From Nitrospirota bacterium (lineage in GTDB: Bacteria > Nitrospirota > Thermodesulfovibrionia > Thermodesulfovibrionales > UBA9159), in assembly GCA_023382175.1 (NCBI GenBank), contig JAMCQB010000100.1:1-46375 (forward strand): a stretch of 46,375 nt of DNA, read 5' to 3'. The position numbers and the translations under genes are program-made. Below, piece by piece: positions 1,243-43,380 of the stretch. The notes under the pieces were generated by a model, which was not told the DNA's origin, made no database searches, and saw nothing but the letters and a program-made list of their open reading frames with translations. Each line of letters begins with the position of its first letter. The first letter of the stretch is position 1.

Positions 1243-1263
1243 AAATAGGGACAGATACCATTT
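1243..1263. repeat. Left terminal inverted repeat of the RAYT element
   Basis: AAATAGGGACAGATACCATTT at 1243-1263 matches the reverse complement of 1968-1988 in 20 of 21 positions. The pair brackets the transposase gene exactly, and the transposase stop codon lies inside this repeat. These are the probable ends recognised by the HUH transposase. Confidence 0.8.
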
Positions 1264-1927
1264 ATCTAACCTTCTTGGGTCTCCCTTTTGACATTGCCTT
1301 CAGTCTCCTGCCTAATACACCCTCTATTTTCTCGATAAAGCCCTCGTCTCCACATGGTCTTCCTGTCCTCGTATTACTCCTGATAGTATTAATCAGCGCA
1401 TCGTCTTCTTTTTCCCCAAGATATCCAGGCCAATCCCGTATTTGCTCTGTCAAATAACAATCCCCAGATAACACAATGTCCGCCTCTTTATAAACATGAC
1501 TTCTCGCACTCGACCATTTATGATCATCCGGTTTTTCAACTATCTTTGCTCTTACAGGATTGTTTTCCACATACCTTACTGCTGCATATAAATACGCTTC
1601 ATTAAGCACACATGAGTAAAATCGTCCTTGCCATAAGTGTCCGACAGCTCCCATCTTTTGATTAAAATACTGTGAATATCTCATGTGAAGGCTATGAAAT
1701 GTCTTTGCAAGTGAAGTGCTTTCCATAGGAACTGCTATAAAATGGACATGATTGCTCATAAGACAATATGCCCATATCTTTAATTGATATTTTCTACTGT
1801 ACTGTTGTAACCATTCGAGATACTGTAAATAATCACCGTCTGACTCAAAAATCTTCTGACGATAATTGCCTCTTTGAGTTATATGGTGTGGATATCCAAC
1901 AGCAACAGGTCGAGATATTCTCGGCAT
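1262..1927 (-). CDS. REP-associated tyrosine transposase (RAYT, Y1_Tnp/HUH family)
   Basis: 221 aa. The protein opens with PRISRPVAVGYPHHITQRGN, the standard RAYT start. It carries the metal-binding HUH motif in SNHVHF and a Tyr in the AVRYVENNPVRAK segment that fits the single catalytic tyrosine of Y1 transposases. These enzymes act on short palindromic REP sequences as single-stranded DNA. The gene is full length and intact, and sits between two 21-base inverted repeats. It interrupts the space between the toxin-antitoxin pair and gmd and has no obvious partner gene. Confidence 0.93.
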   Translation of the reverse strand: MPRISRPVAVGYPHHITQRGNYRQKIFESDGDYLQYLEWLQQYSRKYQLKIWAYCLMSNHVHFIAVPMESTSLAKTFHSLHMRYSQYFNQKMGAVGHLWQGRFYSCVLNEAYLYAAVRYVENNPVRAKIVEKPDDHKWSSARSHVYKEADIVLSGDCYLTEQIRDWPGYLGEKEDDALINTIRSNTRTGRPCGDEGFIEKIEGVLGRRLKAMSKGRPKKVR

Positions 1928-1967
1928 GACTGTAATAATACCTTTGCATCACGATAAATGTAAATAA

Positions 1968-1988
1968 AAATGGTTTCTGTCCCTATTT
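1968..1988. repeat. Right terminal inverted repeat of the RAYT element
   Basis: Reverse complement of the left repeat with one mismatch. It lies 41 bases upstream of the transposase ATG and directly before the 3' end of gmd, so the whole element is about 746 bp. Confidence 0.8.
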
Positions 1989-1995
1989 TAGGCAA

Positions 1996-3213
1996 CTATT
2001 CATGAGAATTTAAAACCTTGAAGCCTTCGCGGCTACAAAGGTAGTCGCGCTGGGCCTCCAGGACGTCCTCACCGATCATCTCCTTCACCAATTCCTTAAA
2101 CGTCATTTTCGGTTGCCAGCCGAGTTTCTTTCTCGCCTTTGACGCATCGCCGAGGAGCGTTTCCACTTCAGTGGGCCGGAAATAGCGGGAATCGACCTGG
2201 ACCAGCGTGTCTCCGACACGTAAAGGAGAGGTCGAGGTCAAGGGTGAGGTTGAGGTTGAGCGGGAAGAGGTCGAGGCTAAGGCTGAGGTTAAGGACTTAA
2301 TAATACCTCTTTCTTTTACTCCTTCACCTTTCCATTCCAGTTCTATTCCGATTTCTTTGAAGACTGCTTCGACGAATTCACGGACGGAGTGCTGTTCGCC
2401 TGTGGCGATGACGTAATCGTCCGGTTCCTTCTGCTGAAGCATGAGCCACATGGCCTCGACAAAATCCCTCGCATGCCCCCAGTCCCTCTTCGCGTTCAGA
2501 TTCCCCAGATAGAGCTTTTTCTGCAGTCCAAGCTTTATCCTCGCCGCAGCCCTGGTGATCTTCCTCGTCACAAAGGTCTCGCCTCTGACGGGGGATTCAT
2601 GGTTAAAGAGAATGCCGTTGCTTGCATGAATGCCGTAAGCTTCACGGTAGTTCACCACTATCCAGTACGCGTAGAGCTTTGCCGCTGCGTAGGGACTCCT
2701 GGGATAAAAAGGCGTGGTCTCTTTCTGGGGAATCTCCTGAACTTTCCCATATAACTCTGAGGTGGAGGCCTGATAGAACCTCACCTTCTTTGTCATATTC
2801 AGAATCCTCAATGCCTCCAGAAGCCTCAACGTGCCAAGGGCATCGGCATTGGCAGTATATTCGGGAGTCTCAAAGGAAACCTGCACATGTGATTGGGCCG
2901 CCAGGTTATAGAGCTCGTCGGGCTGTGTCTCCTGGATGATGCGTATGAGGTTCGTTGCATCCGTCAGGTCTCCATAGTGCATGAAGAACCTCGGATGCCC
3001 TTCGTGGGGATCAACATAGAGGTGGTCCACGCGCTGGGTATTGAAGAGAGAAGCGCGGCGTTTTATCCCGTGGACCACGTACCCCTTGTGCAAAAGAAAC
3101 TCCGCCAGATACGCGCCGTCCTGGCCGGTGACGCCGGTAATAAGCGCGACGCGCTTCTTACCGGAATTTTCACTGTTGAATGATGAATGTTGAATGCTCA
3201 CTTTCCTTTTCAT
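1996..3213 (-). CDS. gmd: GDP-mannose 4,6-dehydratase
   Basis: 405 aa. It converts GDP-mannose to GDP-4-keto-6-deoxymannose, the first step to GDP-fucose. The Rossmann motif [10 protein letters not shown] follows the N-terminus, the SDR catalytic YxxxK is in [12 protein letters not shown], and RYFRPTEVE is the usual C-terminal signature. Two segments are foreign to the family. Residues 6-14 (SIQHSSFN) are encoded by TTGAATG-type heptamers. A Ser/Thr-rich insert of about 26 residues before [11 protein letters not shown] is encoded by GGTTGA-type hexamers. Both keep the frame. The ATG at 3213 is supported by GGAGAG upstream, so the heptamer really is translated. fcl lies upstream in the same direction. 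Confidence 0.95.
2229..2294. repeat. Degenerate hexanucleotide array inside gmd
   Basis: On the plus strand the units are GGTCGA, GGTCAA, GGGTGA, GGTTGA, GGTTGA, then GGTCGA, GGCTAA, GGCTGA, GGTTAA. It lies wholly inside the gmd reading frame, where it encodes alternating Ser and Thr/Ala. The same unit family occurs in fcl, between manC and the mutase gene, and around 11.7-14.9 kb. Confidence 0.85.
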
Positions 3214-3380
3214 GTTCTCTCCAATATCAGAGCTTTTTCTGCGACGTGGTTTTCACAATCCTGGTCAGCACCGTAAACTCAAAGCTCATTTTCTCGATAA
3301 GATTTTCTTTTACCATAATTCATGATTCATAATTTAGCATTCATAATTGTTTTTATGACTTAATTCAAAATTCAACATTG
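3172..3380. repeat. TTGAATG-type heptamer repeats at the gmd start and in the fcl-gmd gap
   Basis: TTGAATGATGAATGTTGAATG is spread over 3176-3196, inside the first codons of gmd. Looser ATTCAT/ATTCAACAT units run through the fcl-gmd gap (3318-3380), up to and into the last codons of fcl. Besides these units the gap shows only the gmd ribosome site. Confidence 0.7.
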
Positions 3381-4376
3381 CCTTTTAAGGAAGTCTTCAT
3401 AGGCCAGTCTCAGCCCTTCCTTCAGCCCCGTTTTTGCTTTCCAGCCCATGGCGTTTATTTTCGTGCAGTCCACCAGTTTCCTCGGCGTGCCGTCCGGCTT
3501 TGAGTGATCAAAAACGATACCACCGTCAAAGCCCACCACATCCCTGACCATGTCGGCCAGTTCCTTTATCGTCACTTCCTCTCCCGAGCCAACATTCACT
3601 GTCTCATTGCCGGAATAGTTTTTCATTAGAAATACACATGCGTCGGCAAGATCGTCCACGTAGAGAAACTCCCTCAGGGGAGTTCCCGTGCCCCAAATAA
3701 CAACAGGTTCAGGTTGAGGCAAAAAAAAGGTCGAGGTCAAGGTTGAGGTTGAGCGATCCTTAGCCTTAACCTCGGCCTCAGCCTGCTCCGAGAGGAGCTT
3801 TGCTTCATGGAACCGTCTTATCAACGCCGGGATCACGTGGGAATTCATGGGATCGTAATTGTCATTTGGCCCATAAAGATTCGTCGGCATGCACGAAATG
3901 AAGTCGGTGCCGTACTGCCGGTTATAGGACTCGCAAAGCTTTATGCCCGCGATCTTTGCTACGGCATAGGGCTCGTTCGTAGGTTCGAGCTTGCCGTCAA
4001 GGAGATACTCCTCCTTCATCGGCTGGGCAGCAAGCTTGGGATAGATGCAGGACGACCCCAAAAAGAGCAGTTTCTTCACGCCTGCCTTAAATGCGCCGTG
4101 GATAATATTGCATTCGATCATCAGATTGGTATAGATAAACTCAGCGCGATAGGTGTTGTTGGCATATATCCCTCCCGCTTTCGCAGCAGCAAGGAAAATA
4201 TATTCAGGCCTTTCTCTCCGGAGACACTCCGTTACCGCCTTCTGGTCAGTCAGGTCCAGTTCTTTTGAGGCAGGGCCGATAATGTTCGTGAATCCTTCTG
4301 CCCTGAGCCGCCGCTCGATGGCAGAGCCCACCATGCCACGACGGCCGGCGATATAGATTTTAGAGTTCAAATGCAT
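3372..4376 (-). CDS. fcl: GDP-L-fucose synthase (GDP-4-keto-6-deoxymannose epimerase/reductase)
   Basis: 334 aa from the chosen start. It epimerises and reduces the Gmd product to GDP-L-fucose. The opening [16 protein letters not shown] is the family's NADP-binding start, and [17 protein letters not shown] carries the YxxxK pair. I chose the ATG at 4376 because the track start at 4466 adds 30 residues encoded by heptamer repeat DNA; neither start has a clear ribosome site. An insert of about 25 residues, rich in Ala/Glu then Ser/Thr, separates FHEAK from the conserved [17 protein letters not shown] and is encoded by inverted hexamer arrays. Confidence 0.93.
3706..3786. repeat. Inverted pair of hexanucleotide arrays inside fcl
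   Basis: A GGTCGA/GGTTGA arm is followed after a short spacer by a CCTTAG/CCTCAG arm in the opposite orientation. The same arm-spacer-arm layout is found at 5960-6040. The whole element is in frame in fcl. Confidence 0.8.
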
Positions 4377-4392
4377 CGTAAGAGGAAAACGA

Positions 4393-4479
4393 TTTTGAAT
4401 GCTCAATGTTGAATATTGAATAAAGGAAATGCATGAAGCCATTTGTCCGCGTAATTCAACATTCAAAATCCAACATTGC
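4393..4479. repeat. Heptamer repeats in the manC-fcl gap
   Basis: TTGAATGCTCAATGTTGAAT (4395-4414) and ATTCAACATTCAAAATCCAAC (4453-4473) are oppositely oriented copies of the TTGAATG family filling the space between manC and the preferred fcl start. Confidence 0.75.
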
Positions 4480-4480
4480 T

Positions 4481-5947
4481 CTATATTCTTCCATATACGT
4501 CATCCACCCTCACGATATCATCCTCTCCCACATACTCTCCGTTCTGCACCTCGATTATCTCAAGAGGCACCTTGCCGGGGTTTTCGAGCTTGTGGAGGGT
4601 TGATTTGGGCACATAGGCTGATTCATTCTCGTGGATGAATGTTTCCCTGCCGTCTATAGTGACCTTTGCGGCTCCCTTTATCACCACCCAGTGCTCGGAC
4701 CGGTGATGGTGCTTCTGGAGGCTGAGCTTCTCGCCGGGATTCACCACGATCCTCTTGATCTTATACCGCTCCCCTTCCTCAAGGATGGTGTAGCTTCCCC
4801 AGGGCCGGTATGTGGTCAGATGCTCGGAAACCTCCTTGCGGTTATCGATCTTCAGCTTATGTATCAGATCCTTAACCTTCTGGGAATGTCCTCGTCTGGC
4901 TATCAGAATGGCATCCCCTGTTTCGACGATAAGACAGTCCTCCAATCCTATGGTGGCGATCAACCTCTTGTCGCCGATTATCATGCTTCCTTTCGTGTCT
5001 ATGACTATCACATCTCCGCTTTTCGCATTTGACCTTTCATCCTTTTCAAGGATATCGAAAAGGGAGTCCCACGAGCCTATGTCATTCCAGTAGAGATCCA
5101 TGGGAATGGTCACCACGCTGCCTGAGTTCTCCATGACCGCATAGTCAATGGAGATATCCGGCATATGTGAAAAGCCGGAAAGCATATCATCAAAACTCTT
5201 TTCGAGCATCCCCCCTATTCTCGGTTCGTGCTTTTCCAATTCATCCATGAGCGTGCCTATGGAAAAAGCGAACATGCCCGAATTCCAGTAATAAGAGCCT
5301 TCCTTCAGGTACCGTTCCGCAGTTTCCGCATCAGGCTTTTCAGTAAACCTTTCCACCTCTAGGAAGCTCATAACTTCCGGCTCATGGCTCATTGCCCCCC
5401 TCTCCCTGCTCTTTGCTTTTATGTACCCATACCCTGTCTCGGGTCTTGTGGGCTGGATTCCGAAGGTGACGATATGGCCTTTCTTGGCGATCTCTTCTGC
5501 CTTGCGCAGGTATTCCCTGAACTTCTTCACAGGCTTGATTATGTGATCAGATGGAGATACAAAGATCACTTCGTCACGGCCACAGCCCAGCCTCTCCAGG
5601 CAGTACTTGACCCCGAGAGCTATTGCCGGGGCTGTGTTTCTCGCTGAAGGCTCCAGGAGCAGATGAAAAACAGTGTTGAGTGAGACGCGATGGTCAAGGT
5701 TTGAATGTTGAATGTTGAATGTTGGATTATCAAATAAAGGCGCCAAATCGGACATGACGTGGAATTTGTAGGCGCTGTTCGTCATCACAATAATGTCGTC
5801 GGGATTTACCACTTCCAGGAGTCTCTCGGCGGTTTCCTGAAGGAAGGACATCCTGTTGTCCAGTTTCAGAAACTGCTTGGGGTAATTTTTTCTGGACAGA
5901 GGCCAGAGCCTTGTCCCTGAACCCCCCGCAAGGATAAGCGCTTTCAT
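4481..5947 (-). CDS. manC: Mannose-1-phosphate guanylyltransferase / mannose-6-phosphate isomerase
   Basis: 488 aa, bifunctional. It joins mannose-1-phosphate and GTP to give GDP-mannose for Gmd. The N-terminal nucleotidyltransferase starts [16 protein letters not shown], with FVSPSDHII and FTEKPD following. The C-terminal cupin (from about residue 370) has [25 protein letters not shown] and [13 protein letters not shown]. Two short family-foreign segments are encoded by repeats: FNIQHSNL after the [10 protein letters not shown] stretch, from TTGAATG units, and [12 protein letters not shown] after GYGYIKAK, from ATGAGCC-like units. Both are in frame, between conserved blocks. The ATG at 5947 fits the family start. 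Confidence 0.95.
5370..5396. repeat. ATGAGCC-type short repeat inside manC
   Basis: GGCTCATGGCTCATTG (5379-5394) encodes part of the extra segment in ManC. The same ATGAGCC unit recurs at about 30990-31003 at the end of the ferredoxin gene and near 1050. Confidence 0.6.
5699..5727. repeat. TTGAATG heptamer array inside manC
   Basis: Three nearly perfect heptamers (TTGAATG TTGAATG TTGAATG) and a partial TTGGATT unit encode the FNIQHSN segment of ManC. Confidence 0.85.
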
Positions 5948-5959
5948 AAATTCGCCATA

Positions 5960-6040
5960 AAGGTCAAGGTTAAGGTTGAGGTTGAGAATAAGATTTGTGT
6001 TTGCATTGTCTTGACCTTAGCCTCAGCCTAAGCCTTACCT
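5960..6040. repeat. Inverted hexanucleotide arrays between the mutase gene and manC
   Basis: AAGGTCAAGGTTAAGGTTGA and following units, then an AT-rich spacer, then TTGACCTTAGCCTCAGCC in inverse orientation. The right arm supplies the last codons and the TAG stop of the phosphomannomutase gene. Confidence 0.8.
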
Positions 6041-14269: not shown

Positions 14270-15593
14270 AATCCACCTTCAGCACCTTAAGGGCTCCCCC
14301 TTCCCTTGCAAGGATCCACCGTATGTCCCCCTGCACAAGGGCCTCTCCGCCGGCATCCACGGACTTGTTTATGCTGTAGGAAGCGGCCACAATGACGTCA
14401 TCCCCGTTTTTCCTGAACTGGACATTTCTCAGGCTGTACCGGTATCTGCTTTTTTCAAAATTGTGCTTGTACGCCCTCTTGATCTCATCATAGTTCATCC
14501 TGCCGTTTTCCACGGCTGACCTCACATAAAGGGACATGAATTTTTCGATGTCTCCCTCTTCATAGGCCCGGGTATACCGGCTTATGAAAAGGTTCACCCA
14601 TCGTTCGATATTCTCCGGCTCAGCCTTAGCAACGCTCTGCTGTTGCGGCACGGGTGAAGGTCTGAGACCTCCCTCGCCGGCCGTGTCCTGGGGTTTTTCC
14701 TGTTTTTGCTCCTCTCCCTTTACCTTTGCCTTTACCTGGTTTTCTTCCTCTGCCTGTTTCTTTTCCTGTATTTGCTTCTCTTCCTCTGCCTTTACCTCTC
14801 CCTTTGCCTTTTCCCGTGTATTGATCTGTATCTCTATCTTTGCCTGTTTTTGTGCTTTTACCTGTGCCTGGGCCTTTTCTTGTACCTTTTCCTTTACCTG
14901 GGCCTTTTCTTTTACCTCTCCCTTTTCCTGTGCCTTTTCCTTTACCGGCGCCTGCTGCTGACCGTCCGCCTTATCGGTCACCCCTGCATGGTGGACGTGC
15001 CTTTGCTGCCTGTTTTCGAGGAATATGACCAGCAATATGACACCGGCAATGACCACGCAGGAGGGAATAATGAGCTTCGACAGAATGCTTCTCATCTTCG
15101 GTGACCCGAGGACGTGCTCCTCCGGAGGAGGCGTGCGAAATTTTCTGATCTCAGGCCGCAGGTGATGCCCCTCCGCTCTCCTCCTGTGGTATTCCCTTCT
15201 CTTTTCCGGGTTCTTCAATACGCTGTACGCCTCGTTGATCCTGGCGGCGCACGACGCTGCCTCTTCATCCCTGTTCCTGTCAGGATGGTACAGGAGCATC
15301 AGTTCCTTCCAGCGTTTATGGATATGGGATTCTGACGCGTTATGGGGCAGGGCAAGGGTGAGGTAATGGTCATTTTCCCTGTTGAAATGGAGCCTATAGA
15401 GGATTTTCGTGATCTGGCCGGAGATATACTCCCTGGAGATGCCCATGGACGACAGAAACTTCCTTGCCCCCTCAGTATCGTTCAGGATATCGATGAAGGC
15501 ATCGGAATGCCGAACGCCGTGGATGCAGAATCGCTCCCACGAAATGCCCGCCCGCACCTCGCCGATGAATTCCAGGGCCTCCTGATGGCTCAC
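14256..15593 (-). CDS. Membrane-anchored J-domain protein with repeat-encoded linker and NTF2-like C-terminal domain
   Basis: 445 aa, GTG start overlapping the TPR gene stop (GTGA). The J domain is at about residues 78-140, with the HPD motif in YHPDRNRDE. There is one membrane helix at about 175-192 (IIPSCVVIAGVILLVIFLE). Residues about 215-310 are a K/E/Q/A/V low-complexity stretch, encoded by hexamer repeat DNA. The last 125 residues (ERWVNLFISRYTRAYEEGDIE to the end) resemble an NTF2/SnoaL-like fold. Topology is probably J domain cytoplasmic and C-terminus periplasmic. J proteins recruit DnaK; a role in assembling the EPS machinery is inferred from position only. Confidence 0.8.
   Translation of the reverse strand: MSHQEALEFIGEVRAGISWERFCIHGVRHSDAFIDILNDTEGARKFLSSMGISREYISGQITKILYRLHFNRENDHYLTLALPHNASESHIHKRWKELMLLYHPDRNRDEEAASCAARINEAYSVLKNPEKRREYHRRRAEGHHLRPEIRKFRTPPPEEHVLGSPKMRSILSKLIIPSCVVIAGVILLVIFLENRQQRHVHHAGVTDKADGQQQAPVKEKAQEKGEVKEKAQVKEKVQEKAQAQVKAQKQAKIEIQINTREKAKGEVKAEEEKQIQEKKQAEEENQVKAKVKGEEQKQEKPQDTAGEGGLRPSPVPQQQSVAKAEPENIERWVNLFISRYTRAYEEGDIEKFMSLYVRSAVENGRMNYDEIKRAYKHNFEKSRYRYSLRNVQFRKNGDDVIVAASYSINKSVDAGGEALVQGDIRWILAREGGALKVLKVDYERR
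14694..14946. repeat. 250 bp degenerate hexanucleotide array coding the J-protein linker
   Basis: Units such as CCTTTACCTTTGCCTTTACC and CCTGTGCCTGGGCC recur across this stretch. The strand orientation relative to the gene is the reverse of that in the glycosidase-like signal peptide, so the translation is rich in Lys/Glu/Gln/Ala rather than Ala/Cys/Phe. Confidence 0.85.
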
Positions 15594-37652: not shown

Positions 37653-37832
37653 ATGAAGCGCTTTCTCAGTCTTCTCTTATTGTTCATTCTGCTTTCTCTG
37701 TCTCTGAGCGGTTGCTATATCTATACAAAGGAACCGCCGCCTGAGCCCGTGATCGTCATATCGCCCGATGGGCCGCCGCCTCCACCTCCGCCGCCGCCTG
37801 CAGGAGCGGTCGGGCCGGCGCCGCGATATTGA
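37653..37832 (+). CDS. Small proline-rich lipoprotein
   Basis: 59 aa, too short for the ORF track. Starts MKRFLSLLLLFILLSLSLSG with the lipobox LSGC, then a short tail ending in a run of prolines and Gly/Ala. AGGAGGG lies about eight bases before the ATG. It is the first gene after the cluster promoter and ends where the next gene begins. Function is unknown; it may tether or space other envelope proteins. Confidence 0.75.
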   Translation: MKRFLSLLLLFILLSLSLSGCYIYTKEPPPEPVIVISPDGPPPPPPPPPAGAVGPAPRY

Positions 37833-37849
37833 AGATGTCAGGTTCGGGC

Positions 37850-38323
37850 ATGAAGATCACGGTATCCGTTTTCCTGCTTGCTGTTCTGGTTTTTCCTGCT
37901 CTGCTTCTGTCAGTTGAGTTCGGGGGCGGCCAGGACCGCGCTGACAATGATACCCTTGTGGTGAGCGGCATCGGGTATCCGCCCATAAAGGCAGAGAACG
38001 CTGCCCAGGCCCGTTTGATGGCGAGGAGGGCAGCCATTCTTGATGCATACAGGAATGCCCTGGCAGGCACGGGATCATCAAATAACGATGAACAGGCGTT
38101 CTATGCCGGTCTGTCAGGTTTTGTGAGGGGGCTGACCATAGAAAGGGAAGAATACCTGGAAGACGGCGGGGTAAGGATTTTTGCGAAAGTCCCCGGCAGA
38201 AGCGTTGCCGTAACGCCACGGGCAACTCGTGAAGGCGTTACCGAAAAAGGTCTGGCGGGGCCATCAGCGGTTCCCCTGAACGAATGGTATAGAATCATAG
38301 AACGCGCAGTAAGATTCCAATAG
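37850..38323 (+). CDS. Exported LPP20-like domain protein (copy 1)
   Basis: 157 aa from the ATG at 37850; TTG 37829 and ATG 37835 are other starts. Signal peptide ITVSVFLLAVLVFPALLLS. A diverged LPP20-like domain spans about residues 45-125 (NAAQARLMARRAAILDAYRNAL, FVRGLTIEREEYLEDGGVRI). The C-terminal 40 residues are unlike the other copies. It is next to a domain family named after the Helicobacter lipoprotein LPP20 and found in flagellar FlgT. Confidence 0.75.
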   Translation: MKITVSVFLLAVLVFPALLLSVEFGGGQDRADNDTLVVSGIGYPPIKAENAAQARLMARRAAILDAYRNALAGTGSSNNDEQAFYAGLSGFVRGLTIEREEYLEDGGVRIFAKVPGRSVAVTPRATREGVTEKGLAGPSAVPLNEWYRIIERAVRFQ

Positions 38324-38341
38324 AATATAAGGGAGGGTTGT

Positions 38342-39103
38342 ATGGAAAAGAGGCTGCGTCGGATATTCGGAGTATTCCTTTCGGTGGCTATTCTTGCTGT
38401 CATGCTTTCCCTGGCTGGAGAGGGAGGCGCCCAGCTGGATCCACAGAAAAGGCTCATGGCCAAAAGGGCGGCCAAGGTGGACGCCCTGAGAAACCTGGCA
38501 GAGATTGTATATGGGGTCCGGATCAATTCCAGCACAACAGTGAGGGATTTCGTGACGCAGTCTGACGTCATTCGGGCGAGGCTTGATTCAGTAATACAGG
38601 GCGCAAGGGAAGTGGATTATGTGGAGCGCCCTGACGGTACTGCAGAAGTGACAGTGGAAATAACCCTGGGGCAGGTGGAGGACATCCTCGGACGAAGACT
38701 TTCGTATAATTACCAGACATTCTCTGCAACGGGCTATGGAGCGCCATCCGGATCTTACGTGGAACCTGCGCCTCCTGCGCCTGCTTTAGACTATGTGAGG
38801 GCAAAGGGCTATGGGATAGAACCGAAGGATCCATCCATGACCTCTGCAGAGAAGACCCTCATGGCAAAGAGGGCTGCAAAGGTGGATGCCCTGAGAAACC
38901 TGGCAGAGCAGGTCAGGGGAGTGAGGATAACCAGCGATTCCTATGTCAGGGACTTCATCACCCAGAGCGATGAAATGAGAGCTAGGGTCAATACCTTCAT
39001 TCAAGGGGCAAGGGTCGTATCGGAGCGGCAGATGCCCGACGGCAGTTATGAAGTGGAAGTGGAAGCCGAACTGGAACCTTTAAGGAGAATCTTTTCGAGA
39101 TGA
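38342..39103 (+). CDS. Exported protein with two tandem LPP20-like domains
   Basis: 253 aa. Signal peptide or anchor FGVFLSVAILAVMLSLAGEG, no lipobox. Two closely similar domains: residues about 33-118 (KRLMAKRAAKVDALRNLAEI, VTQSDVIRARLDSVIQGARE) and about 168-250 (KTLMAKRAAKVDALRNLAEQ, ITQSDEMRARVNTFIQGARV), joined by a Pro/Tyr-rich linker. The near identity of the two suggests a recent internal duplication. AGGGAGGG precedes the ATG. Confidence 0.8.
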   Translation: MEKRLRRIFGVFLSVAILAVMLSLAGEGGAQLDPQKRLMAKRAAKVDALRNLAEIVYGVRINSSTTVRDFVTQSDVIRARLDSVIQGAREVDYVERPDGTAEVTVEITLGQVEDILGRRLSYNYQTFSATGYGAPSGSYVEPAPPAPALDYVRAKGYGIEPKDPSMTSAEKTLMAKRAAKVDALRNLAEQVRGVRITSDSYVRDFITQSDEMRARVNTFIQGARVVSERQMPDGSYEVEVEAELEPLRRIFSR

Positions 39104-39114
39104 GGAGGGATGAG

Positions 39115-39540
39115 ATGTTGAAAGTGAGAGCAGTCGTTATTCTGGCAGTCTTTCTCGTTATGGCAGTAGCGGGTTGTTATGTACAGCAGGTTCCGCCGGC
39201 ACCGGAGCCCAGGGCTGAGTGGGTTCCCATAAAGATATCAGCCAAGGGAGCGGGGGCGCCGCCCGCGACAGCGGTGAATCAGGCACAGGCGAGGCTCATG
39301 GCGGAAAGGGCTGCAAAGGTGGATGCCATGAGAAATCTCCTTGAGCAGGCCTATGGAGTAACCATATCCTCCAACACCACGGTGAGGAACTTCATCACGG
39401 AGAACGATACCATAAGAGCAAGGGTTGACGCGTACATCAGGGGCGCAAAGATTGTTGACACAAGGTACCTGAGTGACGGCAGTGTCGAAGTCGAGATGGA
39501 ACTCACCCTCGGATATGAGTTCAGGAGGATCTTCCCGTGA
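39115..39540 (+). CDS. LPP20-like lipoprotein
   Basis: 141 aa from the ATG at 39115, chosen because GAGGAGGGA is just upstream; the track start at 39100 lies within that site. Lipobox in VMAVAGCYVQQ. One LPP20-like domain from about residue 55 to 138 (AQARLMAERAAKVDAMRNLLEQAYGVTISS, DTIRARVDAYIRGAKIV). It would sit in the outer or inner membrane leaflet facing the periplasm. It overlaps the next gene by 4 bases (GTGA). Confidence 0.82.
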   Translation: MLKVRAVVILAVFLVMAVAGCYVQQVPPAPEPRAEWVPIKISAKGAGAPPATAVNQAQARLMAERAAKVDAMRNLLEQAYGVTISSNTTVRNFITENDTIRARVDAYIRGAKIVDTRYLSDGSVEVEMELTLGYEFRRIFP

Positions 39541-40820
39541 AAAGGGTTACTTCCCCTCATCTGTCATTGCGAGGGACGGAGTCCCGAAGCAATCTTATCG
39601 GTCCAGGGCAGACCATCCCGTCTCATTCACACAAAGATTGCTTCGCTTCGCTCGCAATGACAATATTGGTAGCGCTTTTTGTAATACCCTGCGTAATTGC
39701 CTATTCACAACCCTATGCTGAAGGGGGTGAACTCATCACTGCAGACGGTATGGCAGCCATAATCGGCAGCAATACGGTAATTGCCCGGGACAAGGCCATT
39801 GACGACGCCCTGAGAAAAGCGGTGGAGCAGGCAGTGGGCACCGTGGTATCCTCCGACACCATGACCGAGAACTACAAGGTCATACACGATAAGATCCTTG
39901 CCCAAACCGCAGGGTACATCGAACGGTATAAGGTGCTCTCGGAGAAGTCCCAGGGGGACGTGTATGTAGTGACCATACAGGCCGAAGTGGGCAAGGCTAA
40001 CCTCATGAACGACCTCCGCGCCCTGGGTCTCCTCCACGTCCTCAAGGAAAAGCCGAAAGTCATGGTGCTCATCGATGAAAAAGTGGGCGGCATGTACGGG
40101 ACCACAGGATGGGAGAGCGTGGGACAGGCTGAATCCACCATCATGGAAAAATTCATCGCCGCGGGATTTAATGTGGTGGACCCCGCCGCGGTAAAAGCGA
40201 ACATAACGAGGGACAAGGCCCTCAGGATCCTTGAAGGAGATCCTGCAGCCTCGGCAGCAGAAGGCCTCAAATATGGAGCCCAGGTCGTTATCACGGGCAA
40301 GGCCTTTTCAAAGAATGCGGGAGGTAAGATCCTCGGGACAAGGATGCAGTCCATGCAGGCGACCCTTCAGGCCCGTGTAGTGAGGACCGATACGGCGAAG
40401 GTCATCTCATCAAGGAGCGCAACAGGGGCACAGGCTCACATTGATGAACTGCAGGGCGGGGCCCTTGCGATCAAGGAGGCAAGCGAACAACTGGCCGATG
40501 CGTTGATACAGGACATCGTTAAACAGTGGAGCGGAGAGGTGTATGGCCGTTCCCAGGAGATGACCATCATGATCAGCGGGCTCTCCTCATACAACCAGCT
40601 GGCCGCCATCAAGAAGTTCCTCGAAAAGGAGGCGCAAGGAGTGAAGGCGGTGCACCAGAGGAGTTTTACCGGAGGCGTGGCAGAGTTATCCCTGGATTAC
40701 GGCGGCAAGTCAAGCAATATCGCTGATGAGCTTGCGAACAGGAAATTCCCCGGGTTCAGACTGGAGCCCACCAATGTGACACCAAACAGGATCGATGTGA
40801 GGTCACTCAGACAAAAATGA
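39537..40820 (+). CDS. FlgT-like exported protein (LPP20-like plus TolB/CsgG-like plus C-terminal domain) with repeat in its leader
   Basis: 427 aa. The GTG at 39537 has AGGAGG eight bases upstream. Residues about 8-41 are translated from a 101-base palindromic repeat, and the hydrophobic segment of the signal peptide (ILVALFVIPCVIA) only follows after it. An ATG inside the right end of the repeat (39658) could give a normal signal peptide. Then LPP20-like (IARDKAIDDALRKAVEQAVG), a middle alpha/beta domain (KVMVLIDEKVGG, AAEGLKYGAQVVITGKAF) as in FlgT/CsgG, and a C-terminal domain (EMTIMISGLSSYNQLAAIKKFL). Flagellar genes are absent. Confidence 0.78.
   Translation: MKRVTSPHLSLRGTESRSNLIGPGQTIPSHSHKDCFASLAMTILVALFVIPCVIAYSQPYAEGGELITADGMAAIIGSNTVIARDKAIDDALRKAVEQAVGTVVSSDTMTENYKVIHDKILAQTAGYIERYKVLSEKSQGDVYVVTIQAEVGKANLMNDLRALGLLHVLKEKPKVMVLIDEKVGGMYGTTGWESVGQAESTIMEKFIAAGFNVVDPAAVKANITRDKALRILEGDPAASAAEGLKYGAQVVITGKAFSKNAGGKILGTRMQSMQATLQARVVRTDTAKVISSRSATGAQAHIDELQGGALAIKEASEQLADALIQDIVKQWSGEVYGRSQEMTIMISGLSSYNQLAAIKKFLEKEAQGVKAVHQRSFTGGVAELSLDYGGKSSNIADELANRKFPGFRLEPTNVTPNRIDVRSLRQK
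39562..39662. repeat. TGTCATTGCGAG...GCAATGACA palindromic repeat inserted in a signal-peptide coding region
   Basis: 101 bases with inverse ends TGTCATTGCGAG/GAAGCAATCT and AGATTGCTTCG/CTCGCAATGACA. The same repeat type is widespread among bacteria. Both the frame before and the frame after it are open. Confidence 0.88.
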
Positions 40821-41797
40821 TGAAAGCATCCCGTCTCGCCGGCTTAGCCTTTGTCTCAGGCGGCATTATCCTTTTTGCCTCTGCAGGAGGCGCCACCGCA
40901 GCCGCCGAAAAGGAAGTGGGCAATGTTAAGGATATGAGGGGTTCTGCCAGTATTCTGAGGGAAAAACAGACAGTTGACGCCCGGAAAAACGAGCCCATCT
41001 TCAAGGCTGATACGGTAAAGACCTCTGACAAGTCAAAGATGAAGCTGTTGTTCATCGATGATTCGCTGCTCATGATCGGTGAAAACTCGAAGGTCCTGGT
41101 ATCGGTACACCTGGACAAGAGGGGCAAGACCAATGTATTCAACCTTGTGGACGGGGTAGTGAATGTCATTGTCGGGAAATCGGGGCTGGAGATTCACACC
41201 CCCACGACAGTCTCAACGGCCCGGGGGACTTCCTATGTGGTCTGGGTCGAAAATGATGGAGCGCAGAAAACCGGGGTGGCGGTCTCGGAGGGAAGAGTCG
41301 AGGTAAGGAACAAAGAGGAAACCCTTGCGGAGAAGGTCGTTGTCCCTGCCGGAAAAATGTCCTTCGTTGAGAAAGGAAAGATACCGACGCCGGCGGTGGT
41401 GGCTCCCCCTGAAGTCATCCAGGTTCTGTATAAAAAGACTCTTGAGCAGGAAGAAATATGGGGGCCGGTGATCCTCAGGGCAAAGGGGAGCGCCATCCCG
41501 CCTCCTGACGCCATAAGTCCTGCACAGGCCCGGCTGATGGCGCTCAGGGCAGCCAAGGTGGAGGCATTGAGAAATCTCCTTGAACAGTCATACAGCGTCA
41601 CCATTGTCTCTGATTCCACAGTGCAGGATTATGTACTCAAGAACGACACCATAAAGGCGAAGGTTGACGGCTTCATAAAAGGGGCGTGGGTATCGGAAGA
41701 GAGACTCCTTGCCGACGGCAGCTACGAGGTGGAGATGGAAATAGGACTGGGTATCGGCTTCAGAAGGATGCTTCTGGAGCAGGGAGACATAAAATAA
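40817..41797 (+). CDS. FecR domain fused to an LPP20-like domain
   Basis: 326 aa. Signal peptide ASRLAGLAFVSGGIILFASAGG. FecR-type beta domain from about residue 30 to 190 (VGNVKDMRGSASIL, KTSDKSKMKLLFIDDSLLMIGENSKVLV, GLEIHTPTTVSTARGTSYVVW). LPP20-like domain from about 225 to 318 (AQARLMALRAAKVEALRNLLEQSYSV, YEVEMEIGLGIGFRRML). The fusion links the two families of this cluster physically. It overlaps the upstream gene by 4 bases (ATGA). Confidence 0.82.
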   Translation: MMKASRLAGLAFVSGGIILFASAGGATAAAEKEVGNVKDMRGSASILREKQTVDARKNEPIFKADTVKTSDKSKMKLLFIDDSLLMIGENSKVLVSVHLDKRGKTNVFNLVDGVVNVIVGKSGLEIHTPTTVSTARGTSYVVWVENDGAQKTGVAVSEGRVEVRNKEETLAEKVVVPAGKMSFVEKGKIPTPAVVAPPEVIQVLYKKTLEQEEIWGPVILRAKGSAIPPPDAISPAQARLMALRAAKVEALRNLLEQSYSVTIVSDSTVQDYVLKNDTIKAKVDGFIKGAWVSEERLLADGSYEVEMEIGLGIGFRRMLLEQGDIK

Positions 41798-41834
41798 CCA
41801 TGCCCACAAGGCGTACGAACAGGAGCGGATCGGT

Positions 41835-42248
41835 ATGAGAATGTCAGGGATCTTTATTGCGGCCATTGTCTTTGTTCTCCTTCTTTCTTGTCCCGGATAC
41901 TCCGGGGACATCGAAAGGGCAAATGAACTTGGAGAGGATTTTCAGAGACAGATGCCCTGGTCAAAGGAAAAGCCCCGGAGCGGCGAGACCCCCGGACAGG
42001 CCCAGCCAAGGGATTACGTTGCTCCCCCGGAAAGGGAAAAAAACGAACCACCATCCCAGCCCCAAGGTGGCGATTATCCCGTGTGCTACAACCCTTATAC
42101 GCGGGCATATGAAAACTGTTATCCCCAGGATTCCGAATACTGGCGCCTGAGGTACAGTTCTCCGGATTTCCGTTTCTGGTGGGAACACGGCCGGTCCTGT
42201 CCTTCCGGATACTACTTCAGGCCGGGCCGGGGCTGCTACCGGTATTAG
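41835..42248 (+). CDS. Small secreted Tyr/Cys-rich protein of unknown function
   Basis: 137 aa. Signal peptide IFIAAIVFVLLLSCPGYS. The middle is Pro/Glu/Gln-rich and probably disordered. The last 55 residues have four Cys and many Tyr/Trp (YPVCYNPYTRAYENCY, CPSGYYFRPGRGCYRY), perhaps two disulfides. AGGAG lies about nine bases before the ATG. I do not recognise the family. Confidence 0.65.
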   Translation: MRMSGIFIAAIVFVLLLSCPGYSGDIERANELGEDFQRQMPWSKEKPRSGETPGQAQPRDYVAPPEREKNEPPSQPQGGDYPVCYNPYTRAYENCYPQDSEYWRLRYSSPDFRFWWEHGRSCPSGYYFRPGRGCYRY

Positions 42249-42284
42249 GCGCCATTTCCGGCATGGCTAAAGATTTTCCGCGTG

Positions 42285-42314
42285 TTGATTTGTTGATTTT
42301 GGCTGTTCTATAAT
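42285..42314 (+). promoter_or_regulatory. Sigma70-type promoter of the CsgG-family gene
   Basis: TTGATT (42285-42290), 18 bases, TATAAT (42309-42314). The CsgG-like gene can thus be expressed apart from the LPP20 cluster. Confidence 0.65.
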
Positions 42315-42378
42315 TTGACAGAACCATACGTCATCGCATGGCACATGAAGATAAGGAAAAATTAAAGGGGGAGAGTGT

Positions 42379-43380
42379 ATGAGAAAAAAACCGTTATTGT
42401 TCCTGGTCTGTATCATGTTTGCTTTTAGTGTCACCATGTCCTCCGCTTATGATCAGGGTTCCGGCATGAAGGCCGGGAGTCGAGAGGTGATGATGCTTGC
42501 ACAGGCAAATCCTTCTGATTCCCCGGAGCATGTATGGCCTGCGTACACCGGACCGAAGAAGAGGATCGCAGTGACAAAGTTCGAAAACAAAGTTACCGGG
42601 GTGTACGGCAACTGGAAGCTGGGTGAAGGATTCTCAGAAATGCTCACTACGGAACTGATGAAAACAGGTCAGTTCGTCGTGGTGGAACGCCAGGCCCTCC
42701 AGGATGTGCTCGGAGAACAGGAGCTGGGCCAATCAGGGTTAGTAAAGAAGGAGACTGCTGCAAAGGTTGGACAGATCCTTGGTGCCCAGATCATTGTCCG
42801 GGGTGTAGTATCGGAATTTACCCTCAATGAGTCGGGGGGAGGCGCAGGCATCGGCATCGCCGGCTTCAGACTCGGCGGCAGATCATCCAACGCCCATGTT
42901 GCTGTTGATATCAGGCTCGTTGATACCGCCACCGGACAGGTCCTGCAGTCCCACAATGCGGTGGGAAAGGCAGAATCCAGCGGTGTCAGTGTGGGAGTCT
43001 CGAGGGGAGATGTGGATTTCGGCGCAGACACTTTTAAGAACACCCCCCTTGGTCAGGCAACACGGCAGGCGATCCGCGACGCGGTCCAATTCATTATCCT
43101 CAATATGGAAAAAATGCCTTTTACCGCCAAAGTGATAAAGATTGAGGGGAACAAGGTTTACATAAACGCAGGTTCTCAGATGAATATCAGGAATGGGTTT
43201 AAATTCTATGCCTATTCGGTGGGAGAGGATATCGTGGATCCTGACACCGGATTGAAACTGGGTGCGGATGAAAAACTTGTGGGAACCGTGGAAGTGAGGG
43301 ATGTCCAGGAAAAGTATTCCATCGGATTTCTGTCATCCGGGGGCGGACTCAAGCGGGGAGACGTGCTGAAACTTCAGTAG
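42379..43380 (+). CDS. CsgG-family protein with C-terminal FlgT/SH3-like domain
   Basis: 333 aa. Signal peptide LLFLVCIMFAFSVTMSSA, no lipobox, unlike E. coli CsgG. CsgG-type domain from about residue 58 to 240 (KKRIAVTKFENKV, GEGFSEMLTTELMKTGQFVVVERQALQDVLGEQ, GAQIIVRGVVSEF, VAVDIRLVDTATGQVL). A C-terminal beta domain (AKVIKIEGNKVYINAGSQMNI, GTVEVRDVQEKYSIG) resembles that of FlgT-type proteins. CsgG forms outer-membrane pores for curli; no curli subunit genes are in view. It probably completes the LPP20/FecR system. Confidence 0.85.
   Translation: MRKKPLLFLVCIMFAFSVTMSSAYDQGSGMKAGSREVMMLAQANPSDSPEHVWPAYTGPKKRIAVTKFENKVTGVYGNWKLGEGFSEMLTTELMKTGQFVVVERQALQDVLGEQELGQSGLVKKETAAKVGQILGAQIIVRGVVSEFTLNESGGGAGIGIAGFRLGGRSSNAHVAVDIRLVDTATGQVLQSHNAVGKAESSGVSVGVSRGDVDFGADTFKNTPLGQATRQAIRDAVQFIILNMEKMPFTAKVIKIEGNKVYINAGSQMNIRNGFKFYAYSVGEDIVDPDTGLKLGADEKLVGTVEVRDVQEKYSIGFLSSGGGLKRGDVLKLQ

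Follow-up and report, generated by a model that had tools for sequence, protein, structure and literature searches.

Architecture of the FlgT_N locus

The stretch of DNA analysed here, referred to as the window (46,375 nt), is one whole contig (C23, GenBank JAMCQB010000100.1) of a Nitrospirae metagenome-assembled genome (MAG) of 2.85 Mb in 171 contigs, denoted as G000. It contains a gene for a putative exported protein with an FlgT_N domain, the signal-peptide region of which holds a palindromic repeat lying in frame. The locus comprises the following features, given in window positions.

39100–39540, plus strand: upstream LPP20-type lipoprotein gene; its TGA overlaps the GTG of the next gene, with the same layout in orthologs
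39523–39528, plus strand: AGGAGG ribosome site, 8-nt spacer to the GTG; orthologs retain it in the two Arg codons of FRRIFP
39537–40820, plus strand: FlgT_N-domain gene for a putative exported protein; GTG start, 427 aa, frame open throughout
39537–39561, plus strand: gene-derived N-region VKRVTSPH and the first base of the next codon; unlike the left outer palindrome arm
39562–39662, no strand assigned: inner palindromic repeat TGTCATTGCGAG...CTCGCAATGACA, 101 nt; two arms resembling repetitive extragenic palindromes (REPs), head to head around a spacer
39562–39594, plus strand: left arm TGTCATTGCGAGGGACGGAGTCCCGAAGCAATC; a copy on contig C168 is 97% identical
39634–39662, plus strand: right arm, ...GATTGCTTCGCTTCGCTCGCAATGACA; exact copies on contigs C89 and C65
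39657–39659, plus strand: ATG within the right arm, a possible alternative start; in the hairpin stem, without a ribosome site
39663–39698, plus strand: right outer palindrome arm (...ATACCCTGCGTAATT); coincides exactly with the 12 codons that encode the hydrophobic core ILVALFVIPCVI

The 427-aa protein matches the Pfam family FlgT_N (9.3e-11, above the Pfam cut-off), and the FlgT middle domain has no match here. The GTG at 39537 and the TGA of the upstream gene share bases (GTGA), and the last codons of the LPP20 gene (FRRIFP and the stop) hold the ribosome site of the FlgT_N gene. Eight relatives possess orthologs with 72–80% identity, all without the repeat. In six of the eight, the start overlaps the stop codon of the same upstream gene or lies right next to it, and the FRR codons of that upstream gene contain the ribosome site. 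The preliminary description of the locus had proposed a GTG with a perfect ribosome site and a palindrome inserted in frame into an FlgT-like gene, keeping the frame open and offering an ATG at its right end. These proposals are borne out by the AGGAGG with its 8-nt spacer, by orthologs that start at the same place without the repeat, by the multi-copy nature of the repeat family in the genome, by the intact 427-aa frame and by the ATG at 39657. The same description had expected relatives in which the hydrophobic segment comes immediately after four residues. Instead, the N-regions of close relatives span 7–10 residues and are followed by an unrelated core, and the signal peptides of the orthologs are 28–29 residues long. 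The ortholog cores (e.g. GILFGILAISLWVLVSSAMA) are unrelated to that of the window in both DNA and protein, and no relative with the same leader in the absence of repeat DNA was found.

The inner palindrome belongs to a dispersed repeat family

The ends of the inner palindrome are perfect over 12 bp, and its predicted fold reaches −43 kcal/mol (z −5.4), a value equalled by none of 200 shuffles. A pattern for the right arm matches the genome 41 times, against zero matches for a reversed control pattern, and a BLAST search with the repeat yielded 64 matches. The family is far above chance, with approximately 40–50 arms in the 2.85-Mb MAG. Each family element consists of two head-to-head arms, each able to form its own hairpin, around a spacer that varies in length and sequence. 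Among the 54 distinct TCATTGCGAG arms in the loci retrieved, TG precedes 44 and CG precedes 8 (52/54 for either), so that 44 begin with TGTC and 8 with CGTC, the latter being the terminal tetranucleotide of the Rickettsia palindromic element (RPE) and CGTC families. A literature search with the arm sequence returned no relevant paper.

The division of the MAG into 171 contigs and the multiple copies of the repeat would suit an assembly artefact at this site, or a FlgT_N gene that has recently become a pseudogene. Both are highly improbable, given an intact 427-aa frame at 72–80% identity to close orthologs, synteny with relatives on both flanks, identical stretches of less than 40 nt in common with other copies, and a unique spacer.

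The paired REP-like arms, together with three Y1_Tnp matches in the genome, one of them within the window, recall the systems of REPs and their associated Y1 tyrosine transposases (RAYTs). Unlike in RAYT/REP systems, the Y1 genes here are not flanked by TCATTGCGAG arms (0/3). An association of the repeat with a RAYT transposase was accordingly rejected, and no mobilising enzyme is assigned to the repeat. The Y1 tyrosine transposase gene of the window (1243–1988; match 1559–1885, minus strand) has inverted AAATAGGGACAGATACCATTT copies on both sides, which are unlike the repeat studied here.

The outer palindrome arm coincides with the hydrophobic core

A protein search produced unexpected short matches to residues 22–56 of the FlgT_N protein in the genomes G048 and G095. 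The matching copies are apparently non-genic and revealed that the TCATTGCGAG element is nested in a larger palindrome, GAATTACGCAAGG...CCTTGCGTAATTC. An unbiased BLAST query (39640–39705) was run against 177 genomes of the order. Five matches outside the window end at 39698 (G079, 82%; G095, 80% and 76%; G147, 76%; G127, 79%), and one in G131 covers query positions 12–59. The longest matches outside the window pass through the core DNA, and many others end at the inner arm. The preliminary description had given a 101-base repeat that ends before the hydrophobic segment. The palindrome at 39562–39662 stands as described, whereas its right end was misplaced, since homology to copies elsewhere continues for a further 36 bp to approximately 39698, and this outer arm covers all 12 core codons. 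When 39663–39698 was compared with six outer arms, the score (z 8.6) was reached at none of 30,852 window positions and by none of 20,000 sequences that encode the core peptide with synonymous codons. A fixed spacing is common to the window, G095, and G127. The core DNA of the orthologs has no match to the six outer arms. The core ILVALFVIPCVI has a mean hydropathy of 3.3 and is preceded by an N-region of 42 residues with five Lys/Arg and two Asp/Glu; a candidate signal-peptide cleavage site, assigned by inspection, lies between AYS and QP.

Since the core DNA matches the outer arm while the cores of the orthologs are unrelated, the repeat most likely supplied the core. On this sequence evidence, the gene probably contains a composite palindrome in frame, with the outer arm encoding the hydrophobic core in place of the ancestral one and with translation still beginning at the conserved GTG. 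Several observations weigh against this interpretation. A search of the window for the left outer arm was negative: 54% of randomly chosen window positions align with this arm as well as 39537–39561 does. The right outer arm also lacks its outermost CGGGTTAA, and with these two gaps the insertion falls short of a clean full-length copy. The repeat-free site is known at about 80% protein identity, from relatives of other genera. In addition, removal of the inner repeat would leave a signal peptide of approximately 30 residues, similar to those of the orthologs. This length, together with the absent left outer arm, fits an insertion of the 101-bp inner repeat alone between an ancestral N-region and an ancestral core, the likeness of the core to the outer arm being coincidental; in a peroxidase of the same genome (see below), the core after the repeat bears no visible likeness to the outer arm. 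Such a coincidence is unlikely in view of the strength of the outer-arm match among window positions and synonymous recodings, the G095/G127 spacing, the BLAST matches ending at the same base, and the unrelated DNA and protein of the ortholog cores. A composite repeat that brought the core with it is the simplest account, and a split of the ancestral core by the inner repeat alone is less likely.

At another locus (L124; G095:C206:2090–2222), the outer GAATTACGCAAGG palindrome encloses a different inner palindrome (GTAGCCGCAGGCTTTAGCCTGCG), and it therefore hosts more than one inner repeat.

In-frame inserts recur at the start of a peroxidase gene

A second gene in the same genome carrying the repeat in frame encodes a cytochrome c peroxidase (G000:C167:9372–10529, minus strand; L052/L188), identified from its own sequence, CXXCH motifs, and MauG-like context rather than from a family search. 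Its GTG overlaps a DsbA-like gene and has a GGAGGAG site. The encoded order is VRKNRKLKSYDLVKM, then the repeat (SLRETQSRSNPKQEDCQALLAMT), then GIALLLLYLFAFPLNTFAG. Across the order, 49 of 55 peroxidase N-termini retain the conserved overlapping start with a continuous open frame leading from it into the mature protein, and the overlap with the DsbA-like gene is mostly 14 nt. In G005, G006, G104, G117, G163, and G172, a TTG just before the true start is out of frame, and the true start is in frame. The length from the start to a fixed motif is usually 34–46 residues and amounts to 55–132 residues in twelve genomes. All twelve of these long inserts can be read in frame, without a stop, from the conserved start, and in ten the frame used is the only open one of three; the chance product for the ten, taken as independent, is approximately 1e-9, the true count of independent events being an estimate. 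The inserts begin just after the upstream stop codon. At least eight of the twelve derive from repeats that have dispersed copies in the same or related genomes, and these belong to several unrelated repeat types. A dispersed-repeat origin was not shown for the inserts of G039, G120, and G176, nor for the short low-complexity N-region extensions in G018, G012, G006, G172, and G173. In genus g19, four species each have a different insert and three species have none, which indicates that insertion was repeated.

These inserts bear on the site of translation initiation. The preliminary description had left a choice between a tolerated long N-region and a start moved to the ATG of the repeat. With a moved start, the frame upstream of 39657 would be a relic and the protein would begin with the short leader MTILVALFVIPCVIAYSQ. 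The ATG at 39657 directly precedes the hydrophobic core, and three peroxidase inserts (G000, G082, and G066) have the same ATG-ACA end ahead of the core. However, this ATG has no ribosome site before it, is located in the −43 kcal/mol stem, and leaves no positive charge ahead of the core, whereas the ribosome site of the GTG at 39537 is conserved and coupled to the stop of the upstream gene. A moved start would also free the upstream frame to break. All twelve long peroxidase inserts keep an open frame from the conserved start upstream; by this comparison, a long N-region that is read through is the favoured option, and a start at the ATG is rather improbable.

The peroxidase beside the DsbA-like gene is a recurrent in-frame insertion site, seen also at loci L189, L190, L194, L206, L213, L216, and L221. 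At L233 (G078:C15), the DsbA-like frame continues into the peroxidase without a stop, possibly as a gene fusion.

A third in-frame TCATTGCGAG element is located in the linker of a type III methyltransferase (L105 612–3029; G000:C150). Among its orthologs (L244 and L245), that of G109 does not have this element, and that of G167 has a different repeat-like insert (SPQPPFAKGGQGG) in the same linker. A methylase at L106 1–3027 (G000:C166) has one repeat arm in frame (SLRAEGEAI); another repeat-like stretch, SPLAKGGTQGG, immediately precedes GGFDVVIGNPPY. L107, L001, and L032 were considered as further N-terminal insertions and dropped, as plausible starts lie downstream of the repeat.

A model for repeat-derived signal-peptide cores

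In the scheme that we favour, a TCATTGCGAG REP-like dimer nested in the outer GAATTACGCAAGG...CCTTGCGTAATTC palindrome would have become placed, in frame, within the part of the FlgT_N gene that encodes the signal peptide. The right outer arm would now encode the hydrophobic core, the old core having been lost. Translation would begin at the conserved GTG, which is coupled to the stop of the upstream gene, and continue through the repeat, producing an N-region of about 42 residues. The order of these events, the cellular use of the GTG, and the export of the protein are what we infer from the sequence.

The position of the inserts may follow from the gene layout. With the ribosome site inside the upstream gene, the only spare DNA would be the segment from the stop of that gene to the hydrophobic core. 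An insert after the stop must be in frame and open, since the second gene would otherwise go untranslated; repeats landing in the spare stretch would persist only under this condition. The signal-peptide N-region presumably bears extra residues better than the mature protein does, and inserts would thus accumulate there. Whether this extends to a general pattern appears evenly balanced: the N-region of the second gene in overlapping pairs may repeatedly accept unrelated mobile repeats in frame (with N-regions of up to approximately 100 residues), and some palindromes, ending in ATG and a hydrophobic stretch, may act as portable signal-peptide cores.

If true, the pattern would amount to a rule on the places in bacterial coding DNA at which mobile repeats are tolerated, and would supply a natural set of signal peptides whose N-regions are very long. 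It would also suggest how an export signal can have its functional core replaced by a mobile element. Because the conserved start lies upstream of the repeat, caution is warranted against trimming such N-termini in annotation.

Relation to known palindromic elements

Palindromes that encode protein in frame are already known, as Rickettsia RPEs and enterobacterial RUs, and from other genera. According to Di Nocera et al. 2013 (PMC3733652) and the work of Ogata et al. cited there, RPEs and CGTC-type REPs in genes are short palindromes, arranged as head-to-head dimers, which add 20–30 (up to 82) residues in frame, and some dimers are nested in larger palindromes. The window repeat resembles these elements in being a palindromic head-to-head dimer, in frame and nested in a larger palindrome. 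As with RPEs, it is dispersed and multi-copy, and it is found in the open frame of a gene whose orthologs are without the insert. In contrast to RPEs and CGTC REPs, the window insert lies in and beside a signal peptide, its outer arm probably gives the core, and it appears to belong to another sequence family, in another phylum. The main text of PMC3733652 contains no mention of Nitrospira or Thermodesulfovibrio. The closest precedent for the window gene is the enterobacterial RU-2 repeat in YPO1552 (Delihas 2007, PMC2759123), which differs in that it concerns a single exported protein and a different repeat, with neither a recurrent N-region landing site nor a link to overlapping gene pairs. 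A literature search returned no paper combining signal peptide, N-region, and repetitive element. As far as these searches reached, two things are new: an outer arm that coincides exactly with a hydrophobic core, and one N-region used repeatedly by unrelated repeats.

Neighbouring genes and other repeats

The FlgT_N gene is part of a cluster (37829–43380) encoding LPP20, FlgT_N, FecR, and CsgG proteins, and no flagellar genes were identified among the proteins scanned. An LPP20-domain DNA repeat is present in the cluster as four diverged copies (38441, 38846, 39283, and 41522). Degenerate six-base repeats (CCTTTACCT-like and GAGGTTGAGGTCAAG-like) are present at window positions 14687–14953 and 2222–6000, and units resembling them occur in the peroxidase signal peptides of G006 and G172 (RRLRLR...LVLTLVLTL).
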